From the IMG/VR virus record IMGVR_UViG_3300020421_001872, positions 1-31,625 of that record: a stretch of DNA of 31,625 nucleotides; one strand, written 5' to 3'. This DNA is from a virus. The notes below the pieces were generated by a model. That model saw nothing but the letters and a program-made list of their open reading frames with translations. It was not told the origin of the DNA and ran no database searches. This document shows positions 8,633 through 15,119 of this stretch, in pieces; the stretch's first letter is position 1; the number at the start of each line of letters is the position of its first letter. The position numbers and the translations under genes were made by a program.

Positions 8633-10090
8633 ATGGCTAAATGTGTTCTTGAAATAAGAGATGAAGTAAATGTGAAATTCGTTGGATTAGACGTCAAAAC
8701 AAGACGTGCAATATCTGACGAAGCCAAATATTTTTTACCTTATGCATATCATATGCCTGCTTATAAACTAGGCAGATGGGATGGTTGTGTAAGGTATTGT
8801 GATATTGGCGGCAGAACTTACATGAACATATTAGACAAACTGTTACCCATTGTGCAAAAAGCAGGATATGAGATTGAAATAGATGACAAACGTCACCCTT
8901 ACAATTTTAACTTTCCTGCTATAACCGATACTAGGTATGAAAACACAATGTGGCCCAAAGGTCATCCTGCTGAAGGAGAGCCTGTAATTTTAAGAGACTA
9001 TCAAGTTCAGGTTATTAATGAATTTTTAAAGAACCCACAAAGTTTACAGGAGGTGGCTACAGGTGCCGGTAAGACGCTCATAACCGCCGCCTTAAGCGAT
9101 ATGTGTGAACAGTATGGTAGAAGTATTGTTATTGTTCCCAACAAAGACTTGGTAGTACAAACTGAAAGAGACTATAAGAATTTGGGTCTTGATGTTGGTG
9201 TGTTGTTTGGTGATAGAAAAGAATATGACAAAACCCACACAATATGTACTTGGCAAAGTTTGAGTATATTAGAAAAGAAAAGTAAAAACTATGAAGCAGA
9301 CTTTCCGTTAGATGATTTCATTGACGGTGTTGTATGTATTATGGTTGACGAAGTTCACAAAGCAAAAGCAGATGTGTTAAGAAATCTTTTAAGTGGACCT
9401 TTTAAACATGTACCAATACGTTGGGGTTTAACTGGAACAATTCCAAAAGAAGAACATGAAGCAGTTGGTTGTGTATGTAGTATAGGTCCTGTTATAGGAA
9501 ATCTTAGTAGTAAAGAATTGCAAGACAGAGGTGTACTAGCAGAACTAGACATAAACATTTTCCAATTACAAGACGGTGTATTAGGTTTCAATAACTATGC
9601 ACAAGAACTAAAATGGCTTGTAACAGACGATGGTAGAGTTAATCATATTAGCGAAATCATTAGAGGTTTGAGCGGGAGTGGTAATACACTGGTGTTAATA
9701 GATAGATTAGCAACAGGTGAATTACTAATTGAAAAGAACCCAGACTGGGTGTTTATCAGTGGAGATATGAAAGTAAAGGACAGACAGTCTGAGTATGCTG
9801 AAATATCAGAAGCAGATAATAAAGTCATTGTTGCTACATATGGTGTGGCGGCAGTTGGTATTAACATACCTAGAATATTTAATTTAGTACTTTTAGAACC
9901 TGGCAAAAGTTTTGTTAGGGTAATACAAAGTATAGGAAGAGGTATTCGTAAAGCAGAAGATAAAGATTATCTACATGTCGTAGATATTACCAGTAATCTG
10001 AAATACAGTAAAAGGCATTTAACAAAAAGAAAAGCATTTTATAAAGAGCAAGGATTTCCGTTTACAGTAACAAAAGTGGAGTATAAATGA
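8633..10090 (+). CDS. uvsW: UvsW-like ATP-dependent DNA helicase
   Basis: 485-residue superfamily-2 helicase, near T4 UvsW (503 aa), which unwinds and remodels branched DNA and R-loops and helps switch from origin- to recombination-dependent replication. An N-terminal domain (about 1-110) contains the UvsW-like AYKLGRWDG. Motif I is ATGAGKT (142-148), motif II is DEVH (239-242), motif III is LTGT, and motif VI is QSIGRGIRK (432-440). The first residues align well with the expected UvsW N-terminus, so ATG 8633 is right even though no ribosome site precedes it. It is the first gene of a long overlapping operon; its stop overlaps the next ATG (ATGA). Confidence 0.93.
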   Translation: MAKCVLEIRDEVNVKFVGLDVKTRRAISDEAKYFLPYAYHMPAYKLGRWDGCVRYCDIGGRTYMNILDKLLPIVQKAGYEIEIDDKRHPYNFNFPAITDTRYENTMWPKGHPAEGEPVILRDYQVQVINEFLKNPQSLQEVATGAGKTLITAALSDMCEQYGRSIVIVPNKDLVVQTERDYKNLGLDVGVLFGDRKEYDKTHTICTWQSLSILEKKSKNYEADFPLDDFIDGVVCIMVDEVHKAKADVLRNLLSGPFKHVPIRWGLTGTIPKEEHEAVGCVCSIGPVIGNLSSKELQDRGVLAELDINIFQLQDGVLGFNNYAQELKWLVTDDGRVNHISEIIRGLSGSGNTLVLIDRLATGELLIEKNPDWVFISGDMKVKDRQSEYAEISEADNKVIVATYGVAAVGINIPRIFNLVLLEPGKSFVRVIQSIGRGIRKAEDKDYLHVVDITSNLKYSKRHLTKRKAFYKEQGFPFTVTKVEYK

Positions 10091-10590
10091 AAATTTTAAC
10101 AGTAGAAAATGAGGTCTATGAAATAGACCAGGTACCTGACGAAGTAGATGATATTAGATTTGGAGTTTTCGATACAAGCGATCCTGAGTGGATGGATTAC
10201 TATTTTTTACCTCTAATATTTTTAGAGAGTTTTTACGCACCTGCAATATGTTTACAAATAGGCGAACACAATATTCAAATGCCTATGGATTGGAGTATAG
10301 CAATTACAGATGAAGATTTAACAGGTATAGAAGTAATACCTTTGACTAGTTTAAACAATAGAGGATTTTTAACTGCAACATTAAATCCTTTGAGTGGTAA
10401 GATTTTGGAATGCCATGAAATAAGAATCACAAACATCTTTCAAGATGTAAAATGGTTTTTTCCAAAATTAAAAAACGGACACATGTTAATTGCTCCGTTG
10501 GAAGATAAAGCAGATCCTAGATGTGCTATGTTTGTGAAAGAAGCAAACAAAATTCCGGCTGAGATTGATATTGGTTATTTGTTAGACTAG
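10087..10590 (+). CDS. Hypothetical protein downstream of uvsW
   Basis: 167 residues, start overlapping the uvsW stop (ATGA), so translation is probably coupled. Acidic, mixed alpha/beta composition, with no signal peptide or membrane segment. A central hydrophobic, aromatic stretch (DYYFLPLIFLESFYAPAICLQIG) and the segment TATLNPLSGKILECHEIRI are the most distinctive parts. I do not recognise a domain. The operon position suggests a DNA-metabolism or virion-assembly accessory role, which is only inference. Confidence 0.8.
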   Translation: MKILTVENEVYEIDQVPDEVDDIRFGVFDTSDPEWMDYYFLPLIFLESFYAPAICLQIGEHNIQMPMDWSIAITDEDLTGIEVIPLTSLNNRGFLTATLNPLSGKILECHEIRITNIFQDVKWFFPKLKNGHMLIAPLEDKADPRCAMFVKEANKIPAEIDIGYLLD

Positions 10591-10598
10591 GAGGATAT

Positions 10599-11351
10599 AT
10601 GAAATACAAATATAGAATAGATGGTGGAAGATACGGAGGAGAACTTGCAGTAGGTACTGTAACAGATGAGTTCGTTGAATATTGGGCACCTAAAATTGAA
10701 GAAGAAGGAGCATATGAATCCTTTATACCGCATGTACTTTGTTTAAGTGAATGGGATGATGATGAAGATATCGATTCTAAATCTCCTAGCATAATGGAAG
10801 ACAGTAATGAAATTCCAGGTTGGTATGAAGTAGACGACATTGAACACATTAACAATGCTTATGCAGATGGCGGCTTTACAGTTACTAACATCACTGATGA
10901 AGATGACGAGTGGGCATACAATGAAAATGAAATAGAAGTCGAAGGTCATTGTCTAAAAGGTAGGGAAGGTGCTTATATCAGCACTGATGACCCTGCAGGA
11001 GAGTATGAGCCAGAAGATTACACTCCAGTAATGCTATTTCATAGTTCTGAAAAAGGTGGCTTTGCAAGTTGGTTTGTGGAAACAGACGAACCTTTTGAAC
11101 CTAACAAACTAGTGTTCAGTATTGTAGAAACACATTTAGGTGAATTTGTAGAAGATGTTTGGTATGATAAAGAACTACTAGAAGCAAACTTTGACTATAA
11201 CGATACAACAGGTAAAAGTTATGAAGCCGCAGTTGGGTGGATCACAAACAAATGGAGAGACCCTTATGTTGATCCTGAAGATGCAGACCTAACAGAAGCA
11301 TGGGAAGAATATGATTCAGACATAGAATGGGAATTAGAGAATGGATCTTAA
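10599..11351 (+). CDS. Very acidic hypothetical protein
   Basis: 250 residues, AGGAGG-type ribosome site upstream, overlapping the next gene by 11 bases. Asp and Glu are abundant throughout, with runs such as EWDDDEDIDSK and a strongly acidic tail ending DSDIEWELENGS; Trp and Tyr are also frequent. The protein has no membrane segment or recognisable catalytic motif. High acidity with many aromatics is compatible with a DNA-mimic or partner-binding protein, but composition alone does not establish that. Confidence 0.8.
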   Translation: MKYKYRIDGGRYGGELAVGTVTDEFVEYWAPKIEEEGAYESFIPHVLCLSEWDDDEDIDSKSPSIMEDSNEIPGWYEVDDIEHINNAYADGGFTVTNITDEDDEWAYNENEIEVEGHCLKGREGAYISTDDPAGEYEPEDYTPVMLFHSSEKGGFASWFVETDEPFEPNKLVFSIVETHLGEFVEDVWYDKELLEANFDYNDTTGKSYEAAVGWITNKWRDPYVDPEDADLTEAWEEYDSDIEWELENGS

Positions 11352-11871
11352 AGATGTAATAAAAACTGTACCTGATTTTCCTGTAAAAGGAATCATGTAC
11401 AAAGATGTTACTAGTATTTTAGAAAATCCACAAGCATTCCAATATACTGTTACTAAACTAACAGACTATTGTTTGAGGAATAAAATAACGGATATTGTGG
11501 CTCCTGATGCCAGAGGATTTCTTTGGGGAAGTCCGATAGCATTAGATATGGAAATACCATTACACATTGTTCGTAAGCCAGGTAAACTGCCAGGACCGTT
11601 ACATACACATCATTTTACATATGAGTATGCAGAAACTAACTTAAACATAAAGCAAGACGCAAAATTAGGGCCAGACAGCAACGTTTGTATCATAGATGAT
11701 GTAAGTGCTACGGGTGGTACTGCAAGTGCTATATACGAGCTCTTACAGAACTTTAGAGTATCAGAAATTAAATATGCATGTGTAATAGACTTGACTTTTT
11801 TACAAGGTACTGCTAAACTAAAAGATTACTGTAATGTAGATACATTTAGTGTGGTTGAATATGATGCGTAA
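11341..11871 (+). CDS. apt: Adenine phosphoribosyltransferase
   Basis: 176 residues, close to bacterial APRT (about 180). The enzyme makes AMP from adenine and PRPP. The N-terminus (IKTVPDFPVKGIMYKDVTSILENPQAF) aligns closely with E. coli Apt. ARGFLWG and VRKPGKLPG are family motifs. The PRPP-binding loop is VCIIDDVSATGGT (Asp119, Asp120). The C-terminus FSVVEYDA resembles the Apt end. It overlaps the next gene, a nucleosidase that would release adenine, so the two form a salvage module. ATG 11341 overlaps the previous gene; no clear ribosome site, suggesting coupled translation. Confidence 0.93.
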   Translation: MDLKDVIKTVPDFPVKGIMYKDVTSILENPQAFQYTVTKLTDYCLRNKITDIVAPDARGFLWGSPIALDMEIPLHIVRKPGKLPGPLHTHHFTYEYAETNLNIKQDAKLGPDSNVCIIDDVSATGGTASAIYELLQNFRVSEIKYACVIDLTFLQGTAKLKDYCNVDTFSVVEYDA

Positions 11872-12415
11872 TATAATTTTAATAGCCTTAGAACAAGAAG
11901 CACCTAATATGGCAGAATGGGAAAACGTATTTTTTACAGGTGTTGGAAAAGTAAATGCAGGTATTACTGCGGCTAGATTAATAGAAAAGTATCAACCTGA
12001 AACAGTTTTTAACTTTGGTACTGCAGGTGGTGTTAGTGTATCCAGTGGCATACATGAAATACAAAGTTTTATACAACGTGATATGATGTGTTGTGAATTA
12101 GGATTCGAAGAAGGACAAACTCCTTTTGAAGAAGAAAGTGTTATTAGTTTTGGAGATGTTATAAGTGACATGTGTTGTAGTACTGGTGATAATTTTGTTA
12201 GTGGTTATTCAGATGATTGGGCTATCACAGATGTGGTAGACATGGAAGCCTATGCAATAGCAAAAGCATGTAAACAAGCAAATGTAAATTTTAGATGTTT
12301 TAAGTATATAAGTGACCAAGCAGATAAAAACGCAAACACAGATTGGCAAGAAACAGTTGCAGATGGTGAAAAATATTATATAAAACTCTTTGAACAAATT
12401 ATAGGCGGAAGTTAA
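11861..12415 (+). CDS. mtnN: MTA/SAH nucleosidase-like protein (PNP/UDP phosphorylase superfamily)
   Basis: 184 residues from ATG 11861 (ATG 11864 or GTG 11849 are alternatives). MTAN cleaves 5'-methylthioadenosine and S-adenosylhomocysteine to adenine. Sequence landmarks match E. coli MTAN: ALEQEA (Glu13, for Glu12), TGVGKVNAGITAARL, FNFGTAGGV, VVDMEAYAIA (Glu129, for Glu174) and KYISDQAD (Asp152, for Asp197). All three catalytic residues are therefore present. It is about 50 residues shorter than E. coli MTAN (232), lacking part of the N-terminal sheet and some loops. It overlaps apt, and its stop overlaps the next start. Specificity (MTA, SAH or another adenine nucleoside) is not decided by sequence alone. 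Confidence 0.85.
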   Translation: MMRNIILIALEQEAPNMAEWENVFFTGVGKVNAGITAARLIEKYQPETVFNFGTAGGVSVSSGIHEIQSFIQRDMMCCELGFEEGQTPFEEESVISFGDVISDMCCSTGDNFVSGYSDDWAITDVVDMEAYAIAKACKQANVNFRCFKYISDQADKNANTDWQETVADGEKYYIKLFEQIIGGS

Positions 12416-12882
12416 TGGCAAAGAAACCACAGATACCTTTAGCAGAAGTTATGCGAGCCATAGATAAAAAAGACAGAGGCTGGTATAACAAACTAACACC
12501 TGAACAAAAGAAAGCATTTAGTCCTTGGATGATGATGAGATATGCTAGTAGTGTGCAAGGCAAACAAGCACCTGACTATGTGTGGATGGTAAATGAATTA
12601 ATAAATCACAAGTTTAGTGATGTTAGTAAGCACCCTGAACTACAATGGTTATTGATGACTGCGGCTGGTAGTGGTAAAGTACAACATCATCCATATATAA
12701 AACCACCTAATGCAAGAAAGAAGAAAAGTAAAAGGGTAGATTTTATTAATGATATATTGCCACATTTAAAACAAGATGAAATTGATTTATTGTTAAGTAT
12801 AAACAATGATGATGACTTAAAACAAATGGCAAGAGACTTTGGTTTAGATGATAAAACAATAAAGGAAATATTTAAGAAATGA
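12415..12882 (+). CDS. 62: Probable clamp-loader small subunit, gp62-like
   Basis: 155 residues, start overlapping the upstream stop (TAATG) and end overlapping the next ATG. The layout follows marine-phage gp62: a segment SPWMMMRYASSVQGKQAPDY followed by VWMVNELINHKF, then HPELQWLLMTAA, a basic stretch PPNARKKKSKR, and a helical tail ending KQMARDFGLDDKTIKEIFKK. gp62 works with gp44 to load the gp45 sliding clamp. I see neither gp44 nor gp45 here, so the assignment relies on the pattern. Basic, cytoplasmic. Confidence 0.6.
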   Translation: MAKKPQIPLAEVMRAIDKKDRGWYNKLTPEQKKAFSPWMMMRYASSVQGKQAPDYVWMVNELINHKFSDVSKHPELQWLLMTAAGSGKVQHHPYIKPPNARKKKSKRVDFINDILPHLKQDEIDLLLSINNDDDLKQMARDFGLDDKTIKEIFKK

Positions 12883-13547
12883 AATGCAAATGGTGTGGCA
12901 AAGAGTTTAGAAGTGAAAGCACACTTGCAGTTCATATGTGCGTAAAGAAAAGACGTTGGACTGATAGAGATATGAGTCATATACGTTTGAGCCACAGAGC
13001 ATTTCAAATGTTTTATGAAATAAACACTAGTGCTAAACAACCAAAAAGCATGGAAGACTTTATAATGAGTCCTTACTATGAAGCATTTGTAAAGTATGGT
13101 AGAGCATGTCAGGTTAATGAATGGTTAGAACCAGAGAAGTACACAGAATGGTTAATTACAAAAGGTGTAAAGTTAAAACAGTGGACATCAGATAAATCTT
13201 ACAATACTTATATTCAAGACTTTGTGAGAAAAGAAACAGGACTAAGAGCATTAGAAAGAACAGTTATATATCTTTCTAAATGGAGTGAAGAAACTGATAA
13301 AGATTGGCAGTCCTATTTTGAAATAGTATCGCCTAGTAGAGCAGTACATGATATTAGAAGTGCAAAAATTAGTCCTTGGGTAATTTATCTAAGTAAAACA
13401 GGAGATGAACTGTTGAAGAAATTCAATGATGAACAAGTAGCAATGATAAAAGACTTTATTGATCCTCCGTTTTGGATGAAATTGTTTGCAAATAATAAGG
13501 AAGAAGTAAAAGAAATTAAATCAGCATGTGAGGAGGCAAACATATGA
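12879..13547 (+). CDS. Zinc-finger protein of unknown function
   Basis: 222 residues. The N-terminus has a single C2H2-like knuckle: Cys3, Cys6, His19 and Cys21 (MKCKWCGKEFRSESTLAVHMC), followed by basic KKRRW. The rest is helical and rich in Trp/Tyr/Lys with no catalytic motif. It overlaps both neighbours by 4 bases (ATGA), so it is coupled within the uvsW operon. The finger suggests nucleic-acid or protein binding. Similar proteins occur in T4-like marine phages, I believe, but I cannot name a function. Confidence 0.8.
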   Translation: MKCKWCGKEFRSESTLAVHMCVKKRRWTDRDMSHIRLSHRAFQMFYEINTSAKQPKSMEDFIMSPYYEAFVKYGRACQVNEWLEPEKYTEWLITKGVKLKQWTSDKSYNTYIQDFVRKETGLRALERTVIYLSKWSEETDKDWQSYFEIVSPSRAVHDIRSAKISPWVIYLSKTGDELLKKFNDEQVAMIKDFIDPPFWMKLFANNKEEVKEIKSACEEANI

Positions 13548-14461
13548 GTACAATATTGTTTGCAGGTGACAGTTATGCAGTTGCAGATCCTGAACACAAA
13601 CATCACGGCGAAATAATTGCAGAGCATTTTGGTCTTAAATGTAAATTAGAAGGCATTCCTTTTAGTGATGTACAAGCAAATGGCTATGTTACTATAGGTA
13701 GAATTATAGAAGACCCTAGCATTACACATTGTTTATATTATGTAACTAGAGCAACACATTTACATTTACATGATAACAATATAGATGAAAATTTATTACC
13801 ACCTTTACCAGAAGATATTAAAAATGGTAATCAAAAAATCAAATATACGCAGGAATGGTTTAAAAGTCATTACCAAGCAGAGTACGATAATATACCTGGC
13901 ATGGAGGCTATATTTGCCAAACCTACTGCAGAACAAGAATTTGATGATTGGTTTTTAAAATGGTTACCTAATCCTTCTAAAAAAAGAGCAAGAGAAGGTA
14001 ATTTAGTTTGGGTATCCATGTTAGGTGCAGATGATAAAGCAAAACCACGTGCATACCAAAAAGACCGTATATATAAATTTGACCAATATGACTCTTGGGG
14101 TAATTATACTGCAGGACCTAACGATTTAGAAGAAGTATTTAAAGTACCTGCATACAGTCATGCTATGAGATTCTTTGGAACACTAGCATTAATACAGAAA
14201 GTATGTGATGAAAAAAATGTTAAATTAAAACTAGTACATCACATGCCTGAATTAACGTCTTTGAACACACTTGCAAAAAATTTAAAAATGTTTGATACTT
14301 GGGACATGAGCAAAGATGTCTTTGGTTCACATGATGCGTTATTAAAAATAAGGCATGAGCAAAATCTTAATATGATAAAGTCGCATTACACAAAAGAACT
14401 GCATGAAAAAATTGCAGAAACATTTATAAAAACACAAGGAGATTGGATAAGTGAAAGTTAA
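13544..14461 (+). CDS. SGNH/GDSL hydrolase-like protein
   Basis: 305 residues. The start ILFAGDSYAVAD carries the block-I GDS motif (Ser10) of SGNH hydrolases. A C-terminal SHYTKELHEKIAETF places a His near the expected catalytic position, though the usual Asp-x-x-His is not clear. SGNH enzymes are esterases or lipases acting on carbohydrate or lipid esters. AGGAGG lies 8 bases upstream of the ATG. A second protein of this superfamily is at 18250. With no signal peptide, it would act in the cytoplasm unless released at lysis. Enzyme activity is uncertain. Confidence 0.7.
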   Translation: MSTILFAGDSYAVADPEHKHHGEIIAEHFGLKCKLEGIPFSDVQANGYVTIGRIIEDPSITHCLYYVTRATHLHLHDNNIDENLLPPLPEDIKNGNQKIKYTQEWFKSHYQAEYDNIPGMEAIFAKPTAEQEFDDWFLKWLPNPSKKRAREGNLVWVSMLGADDKAKPRAYQKDRIYKFDQYDSWGNYTAGPNDLEEVFKVPAYSHAMRFFGTLALIQKVCDEKNVKLKLVHHMPELTSLNTLAKNLKMFDTWDMSKDVFGSHDALLKIRHEQNLNMIKSHYTKELHEKIAETFIKTQGDWISES

Positions 14462-15119
14462 ACTAATAAGTCATTCACAAGCACCAGACTTTAACGAGTC
14501 AGCATTAGACTTAGTGGCATATTGTGCCAGGGTAAGTAATCCTACTAACCAAAACAATAAAGAAACAAGTGAGAAACTTGTAAAGTATTTGATGAAACAC
14601 AAACATTGGTCGCCATTAGAAATGGTTTCAGCATGTTTGGAAATTGAAACCACTAGAGATATTGCTAGGCAAATACTAAGACATAGAAGTTTTAGTTTCC
14701 AAGAGTTTAGCCAAAGATATGCTGATCCTACAAACAATTTAGATTTTGAAGTTAGAGAAGCAAGATTCCAAGATCCTAAAAATAGACAAAATAGTATTCC
14801 AGTAGACGGCGATACAGATTATGAGATTATTGATACTTGGAGAAAAACACAAGAAGATGTAATTAGGACTTCACGAGCGGCATACTTTTGGGCAGTAGAA
14901 AATGGTATTGCTAAAGAACAAGCAAGAGCAGTATTGCCAGAAGGCAATACATTAAGTAGAATGTATGTGAATGGAACATTACGAAGTTGGATACATTATA
15001 TAGAATTACGTGGTGCTAATGGTACACAACAAGAACATATTGATATTGCACATGCAGTAGCAGATGTTATTGCTAAGATATTTCCGTTAGCAGAAGAATT
15101 TAAAGGAAAAGACATTTGA
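14451..15119 (+). CDS. thyX: Flavin-dependent thymidylate synthase ThyX
   Basis: 222 residues, typical ThyX length. It makes dTMP from dUMP using methylenetetrahydrofolate and FAD/NADPH. The ThyX signature RHR-x7-S is exact: Arg77, His78, Arg79 and Ser87 in RHRSFSFQEFSQRY. The later segment LPEGNTLSRMYVNGTLRSWIHYIELR fits the substrate-binding region. It starts with GTG at 14451, preceded by AAGGAG, and overlaps the previous gene by 11 bases. A phage supply of dTMP matches the AT-rich genome. The motif makes the call firm. Confidence 0.95.
   Translation: MKVKLISHSQAPDFNESALDLVAYCARVSNPTNQNNKETSEKLVKYLMKHKHWSPLEMVSACLEIETTRDIARQILRHRSFSFQEFSQRYADPTNNLDFEVREARFQDPKNRQNSIPVDGDTDYEIIDTWRKTQEDVIRTSRAAYFWAVENGIAKEQARAVLPEGNTLSRMYVNGTLRSWIHYIELRGANGTQQEHIDIAHAVADVIAKIFPLAEEFKGKDI

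Follow-up and report, generated by a model that had tools for sequence, protein, structure and literature searches.

Overlapping APRT and MTA/SAH-nucleosidase-like genes form a recurrent phage gene pair predicted to recycle the adenine of spent SAM

The stretch of DNA analysed here (hereafter, the window) is a 31,625-nt (31.6-kb) virus record, IMGVR_UViG_3300020421_001872, taken from position 1 to 31,625. It encodes UvsX, UvsY, UvsW, an ssDNA-binding protein, a primase, a DnaB-like helicase and ThyX, a gene set that identifies it as a fragment of a T4-superfamily phage. Among deposited phages, its UvsW-like helicase comes nearest to those of jumbo phages (Paride, PA5oct and Phosso, for example), though at just ~56%. 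Two overlapping frames (Table 1) have this helicase on their left and two conserved small genes, side by side, on their right, one running from an ATG at 11341 to a TAA at 11869–11871, the other from an ATG at 11861 (alternatives: ATG 11864 and GTG 11849) to 12415. The coordinates and frames of the overlapping pair that had been predicted from the sequence, 11341–11871 and 11861–12415, were thereby confirmed. The flanks of this slot (10087–10590 and 12415–13547) hold phrog_11279, phrog_11758 and phrog_11058 genes, which are present in almost all relatives; the phrog_11058 product gave a weak C2H2 zinc-finger match.

Table 1 Features of the window at and around the gene pair
Feature	Position	Strand	Evidence or remark
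UvsW-like helicase	8633..10090	+	phrog_16 E 5e-66; left edge of slot, slot-survey anchor
APRT (adenine phosphoribosyltransferase), 176 aa	11341..11871	+	NF002636 172 bits, PF00156 52 bits, PDB APRTs E 2e-34
PRPP-binding loop VCIIDDVSATGGT, APRT residues 115-127	11683..11721	+	alignment of 15 phage APRTs
MTA/SAH-nucleosidase-like protein, 184 aa	11861..12415	+	PF01048 63 bits; PRK05634 96 bits; 4pr3 E 2e-14; AF2 Z ~19 to MTANs
Overlap of APRT and nucleosidase frames, 11 nt (with ATG 11861)	11861..11871	+	reading frames
Catalytic Glu13 (= E. coli Glu12)	11897..11899	+	invariant; aligned to Mtn
Phe112 (= E. coli Phe151, adenine pocket)	12194..12196	+	invariant; aligned to Mtn
Catalytic Glu129 in VDMEA (= E. 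coli Glu174)	12245..12247	+	invariant; aligned to Mtn
Catalytic Asp152 (= E. coli Asp197)	12314..12316	+	invariant; aligned to Mtn
Conserved gene phrog_11758	12415..12882	+	right edge of slot; defines complete slots
ThyX thymidylate synthase, nucleotide-metabolism gene nearby	14451..15119	+	PF02511 143 bits

The upstream gene had been described as a full APRT, and this description stood: the protein is full length, its PRPP loop contains both the DD and the ATGGT elements of the APRT motif, and its score against the NCBIfam equivalog NF002636 exceeds the cut-off of 125 bits. Seven residues of the loop (D119, D120, A123, T124, G125, G126 and T127) were invariant among the 15 phage APRTs aligned. 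While these properties are shared with APRT (EC 2.4.2.7), the window protein differs in scoring below the cut-off of a second model, TIGR01090 (167 versus 185.85 bits), and in grouping with other phage APRTs. PHROGs returned only a weak family match for it.

The downstream protein scored well above the gathering cut-off of the Pfam family PNP_UDP_1 (63.4 versus 25.1 bits), and alignment to E. coli Mtn bore out the prediction that Glu13, Glu129 and Asp152 are the three MTAN catalytic residues. E13, F112, M128 (which aligns with Mtn M173), E129 and D152 were unchanged across 39 phage nucleosidase sequences. An AlphaFold2 model (pTM 0.85, with a single low-confidence loop at residues 111–115), for which 39 sequences from the window and from phages were used, has the MTAN fold, matching solved MTANs with an rmsd of 2.5–2.8 over ~180 residues. 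Thus, the fold and the catalytic Glu/Glu/Asp are shared with E. coli Mtn (EC 3.2.2.9), whereas the two proteins are only 27% identical, the window nucleosidase is 48 residues shorter, and it falls below the MTAN equivalog cut-offs (TIGR01704, 53 versus 73.8 bits; PRK05584, 76 versus 169 bits). The nearest curated model is that of the short PRK05634 'nucleosidase' (NF004168), whose cut-off of 129 bits is reached neither by the window protein nor by the bacterial homologues scored against it (71–128 bits); PHROGs had no family for the protein at E 0.01. Since the PRK05634-like relatives in bacteria (model length 185) are equally short, at ~185–192 aa, the length counted from ATG 11861 is normal for the subfamily; of the 'shortened 184-aa frame' noted originally, the 184 aa held and the shortness proved ordinary. 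We conclude that this is a PNP-superfamily protein of the MTA/SAH-nucleosidase fold with all MTAN catalytic residues and with predicted substrates. Because the MTAN equivalog cut-offs are missed, the proposed specificity for MTA and SAH is not assured, and because H. pylori futalosine hydrolase matched the model with a fold score equal to that of the MTANs, the fold alone leaves the substrate unfixed.

Among the 80 best viral nucleosidase homologues, 50 had APRT directly upstream on the same strand, 28 did not, and 2 were cut by a contig end. Phage genomes house the pair in no fewer than three unrelated settings, namely the helicase slot, a jumbo-phage slot behind a conserved five-gene run, and beside RNR in phage C48C1. 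Where the two genes meet, their frames overlap, abut or touch at a TAATG. Values of dN/dS from 0.07 to 0.30 show that purifying selection acts on both. Large phage contigs with the nucleosidase but without any PRTase made up 13 of 16 records. Across 50,697 deposited phage records, C48C1 (OQ984149) alone has the pair; there the two genes overlap as in the window and adjoin RNR genes, but the genome context differs and both are labelled 'hypothetical protein'. A hit titled 'Acinetobacter phage MD-2021a' (L094, CAKLQH020000009) carries 5S rRNA, ileS, ribF and lspA and was rejected as a phage carrier, being a bacterial chromosome filed as phage. The content of the slot does vary, as it would if the two genes were chance neighbours within a hypervariable region, but their order, strand and overlapping or abutting frames recur across dozens of divergent phages and in several phyla of bacteria. 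We therefore regard chance adjacency as virtually inconceivable and rejected it. Two complementary enzymes of predicted adenine salvage are thus kept together across many phages, as the original prediction had implied, and the pair appears to be a genuine metabolic module that phages maintain and that is widespread in uncultivated water phages, with enzyme activities predicted from sequence.

Gathering relatives through the UvsW-like helicase yielded 70 complete slots, of which 31 held APRT and the nucleosidase, 28 APRT and MetK, 6 all three genes, 4 APRT alone and 1 none of them. The MetK of the slot was identified by all three Pfam domains, and it sometimes overlaps APRT as the nucleosidase does (L365). 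Upstream of MetK-APRT, sister phages encode a fusion of an APS-kinase-like P-loop kinase with a nucleotidyltransferase-like domain (L349:8713-9513 and L366:4294-5088). MetK and the nucleosidase tended to exclude each other (Fisher p 9e-9, with relatedness ignored); since most MetK slots lack the MTAN and vice versa, a phage rarely encodes the full cycle at this slot. Three of the largest jumbo contigs with the nucleosidase and without APRT have MetK elsewhere in the contig. Because MetK turns ATP and methionine into SAM, its occurrence in the same slot indicates that the locus, taken together, deals with the adenylate that SAM carries. MetK and the nucleosidase jointly point to handling of the SAM cycle, and APRT points to adenine as the prize. 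A broader interpretation, which we think improbable, would make the slot a modular 'SAM-adenylate' unit, with APRT constant and MetK or the nucleosidase variable, in which control of SAM, SAH and adenylate could protect the phage from adenylate-depleting or methylation-based defence.

The APRT itself has also been replaced beside a constant partner. Phage APRTs divide into deep subclades, and along the nucleosidase tree the two main APRT types switch three times; a tree with all type-A carriers in a single clade was rejected by the nucleosidase data (p-AU 2e-58, for a group named after the trees had been seen). In the clearest example (L003 and L005), the nucleosidases are 96.6% identical and the helicases 86%, while the APRTs are only 46% identical. 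APRT has been swapped in place for a distant allele with the pairing intact, which is the pattern expected if selection holds the pair together.

The same pairing exists in bacteria. When one genome was scanned for each species, the short nucleosidase turned up in SAR116, Pelagibacteraceae, Rhodobacteraceae, Dehalococcoidia/SAR202, Litoricola-type gammaproteobacteria, Neomarinimicrobiota, Moraxellaceae and others; many of these have APRT immediately upstream of it, usually overlapping by 8 nt. APRT is located away from the nucleosidase in those genomes of Pelagibacteraceae and Rhodobacteraceae that were checked. Nor is the short nucleosidase family general, being present in only 2 of 96 SAR116-class genomes. 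Superoxide dismutase is found near the pair in SAR116 and purine genes near it in SAR202 (surroundings read by eye, from protein starts). The operon of SAR116, Litoricola-type bacteria, SAR202, Neomarinimicrobiota and Verrucomicrobiota resembles the phage unit in its enzymes, gene order, short overlap (~8 nt) and two-gene make-up. It differs in that phage APRTs stand apart from the paired APRTs of SAR116 and Litoricola, with which no grouping was seen in the tree, and in that the nucleosidases of phages fall into a single, well-supported group (100/99), joined by just three Verrucomicrobiota loci. These loci (L098, L099 and L100, from Verrucomicrobiota MAGs) carry the APRT-nucleosidase pair nested within phage clades. 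Binned phage was rejected as their source, the neighbours of L098 and L100 looking chromosomal when read by eye; the 'phage' clades of both trees therefore include these bacteria. As the Verrucomicrobiota loci nest in the phage group and two of them are apparently chromosomal, an exchange of the whole pair between phages and one or more groups of bacteria seems to have taken place.

We consider it probable that the two genes form a module that recycles the adenine of spent SAM to AMP; its substrates, co-translation, flux and benefit to the phage are inferred. The nucleosidase would split the N-glycosidic bond of SAM-derived adenosine by-products (SAH, MTA and probably 5'-deoxyadenosine) to release adenine, and APRT, translated from the overlapping upstream frame, would convert this adenine and PRPP to AMP. 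The AMP could then feed the ATP and dATP pools, while APRT would draw the nucleosidase product away, so that adenylate would be refilled during infection; the use of the AMP for phage DNA that the original prediction envisaged is conjectural. A comparable salvage is described in a bacterium, where adenine arising from MTA through MTA nucleosidase in spermidine synthesis is recovered by a pathway that includes Apt (PMC13192272).

Where the by-products would come from was approached through the phage genes that might generate them. Among 20 records searched, most of them fragments, SpeD was found in none, and MethyltransfD12 (Dam-type), the one methylase family searched, was absent from 19 and found in C48C1 only. 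A phage-made source of MTA or SAH was thus not found, and host metabolism may supply them. The scarcity of Dam-type methylases also tells against the relief of methyltransferase feedback through SAH removal that the original prediction proposed, and against a stronger version in which this relief is the main role and adenine salvage a by-product. MetK occupies the same slot, as one might expect for such a role, and a T4-like phage from Lake Baikal, which has three methyltransferases besides MTAN and MetK, was interpreted as boosting the SAM cycle (PMC7678222). The stronger version would, however, leave the strict coupling to APRT unexplained, and we hold it to be quite unlikely.

Bacterial MTAN hydrolyses 5'-deoxyadenosine, and jumbo phages bearing the nucleosidase have up to 19 radical-SAM genes, so the enzyme might mainly clear this inhibitory product from the phage's own radical-SAM enzymes, with APRT salvaging the adenine. 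We judge this unlikely: relatives without the nucleosidase are equally rich in such genes (5.9 versus 5.3 per 100 kb, p 0.34), while such genes are absent from the window record and few or absent in most of its T4-like relatives. A radical-SAM link was accordingly dropped as the main cause. The jumbo phages G001, G006, G007, G009, G014 and G157 (behind loci L036, L048, L053, L056, L078 and L263) each have up to 21 radical-SAM genes; in G007 these are near-continuous from ~56 to 76 kb, independent of the nucleosidase.

Recycling of SAM-derived adenine also has to be weighed against counter-defence, in which adenylate would be restored after immunity based on ATP nucleosidases or NAD depletion, or an adenine-containing signal would be destroyed by the nucleosidase. 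APRT would in principle recapture free adenine, and PADLOC gave a weak match (1.2e-5) to PN-family effectors. These matches are at the superfamily level only, which leaves the earlier suggestion of a broad nucleosidase or a part in counter-defence with little to stand on. Moreover, marine bacteria carry the pair on the chromosome as an ordinary operon, the partner of APRT swaps with MetK, and in the window the pair is surrounded by replication genes, none of its neighbours being recognised as a defence or anti-defence gene. We therefore consider counter-defence very unlikely; the bacterial operon and the MetK of the phage slot fit adenine recycling from SAM by-products instead. A rescue of NAD was dropped as well, the 'NAD synthetase' after the C48C1 pair being a GIY-YIG endonuclease. 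This product (L093:12455-12949 in OQ984149) matches SegE at 119.7 bits.

No description of the APRT-nucleosidase pair in phages was found in the open-access literature, in agreement with the original remark that no phage system of exactly this kind was known, and none of the bacterial operon in the literature searched. Within the scope of these searches the pair is new for phages, and the pairing itself already exists in bacteria. A close published parallel is the Lake Baikal methylotroph phage VP_139, a T4-like phage that, like the nucleosidase-bearing phages here, encodes an MTAN, and that also has MetK; together with its radical-SAM genes and RNR, these were read as SAM-cycle metabolic genes (PMC7678222). 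The parts of that report considered here describe no APRT-MTAN pair and leave APRT unmentioned. The module is real and widespread, with a hypothetical function, and lies within known phage nucleotide and SAM-cycle metabolism; it is not a new type of system.

Nevertheless, the pair would give phages a concrete, widespread and nearly unannotated route to recover adenine in aquatic settings, where purines may be limiting. It has also brought to attention a bacterial operon with a clear enzyme logic. The in-place swaps at the slot, of one APRT allele for another and of MetK for the nucleosidase, offer a testable case for phages editing the SAM cycle as a unit.
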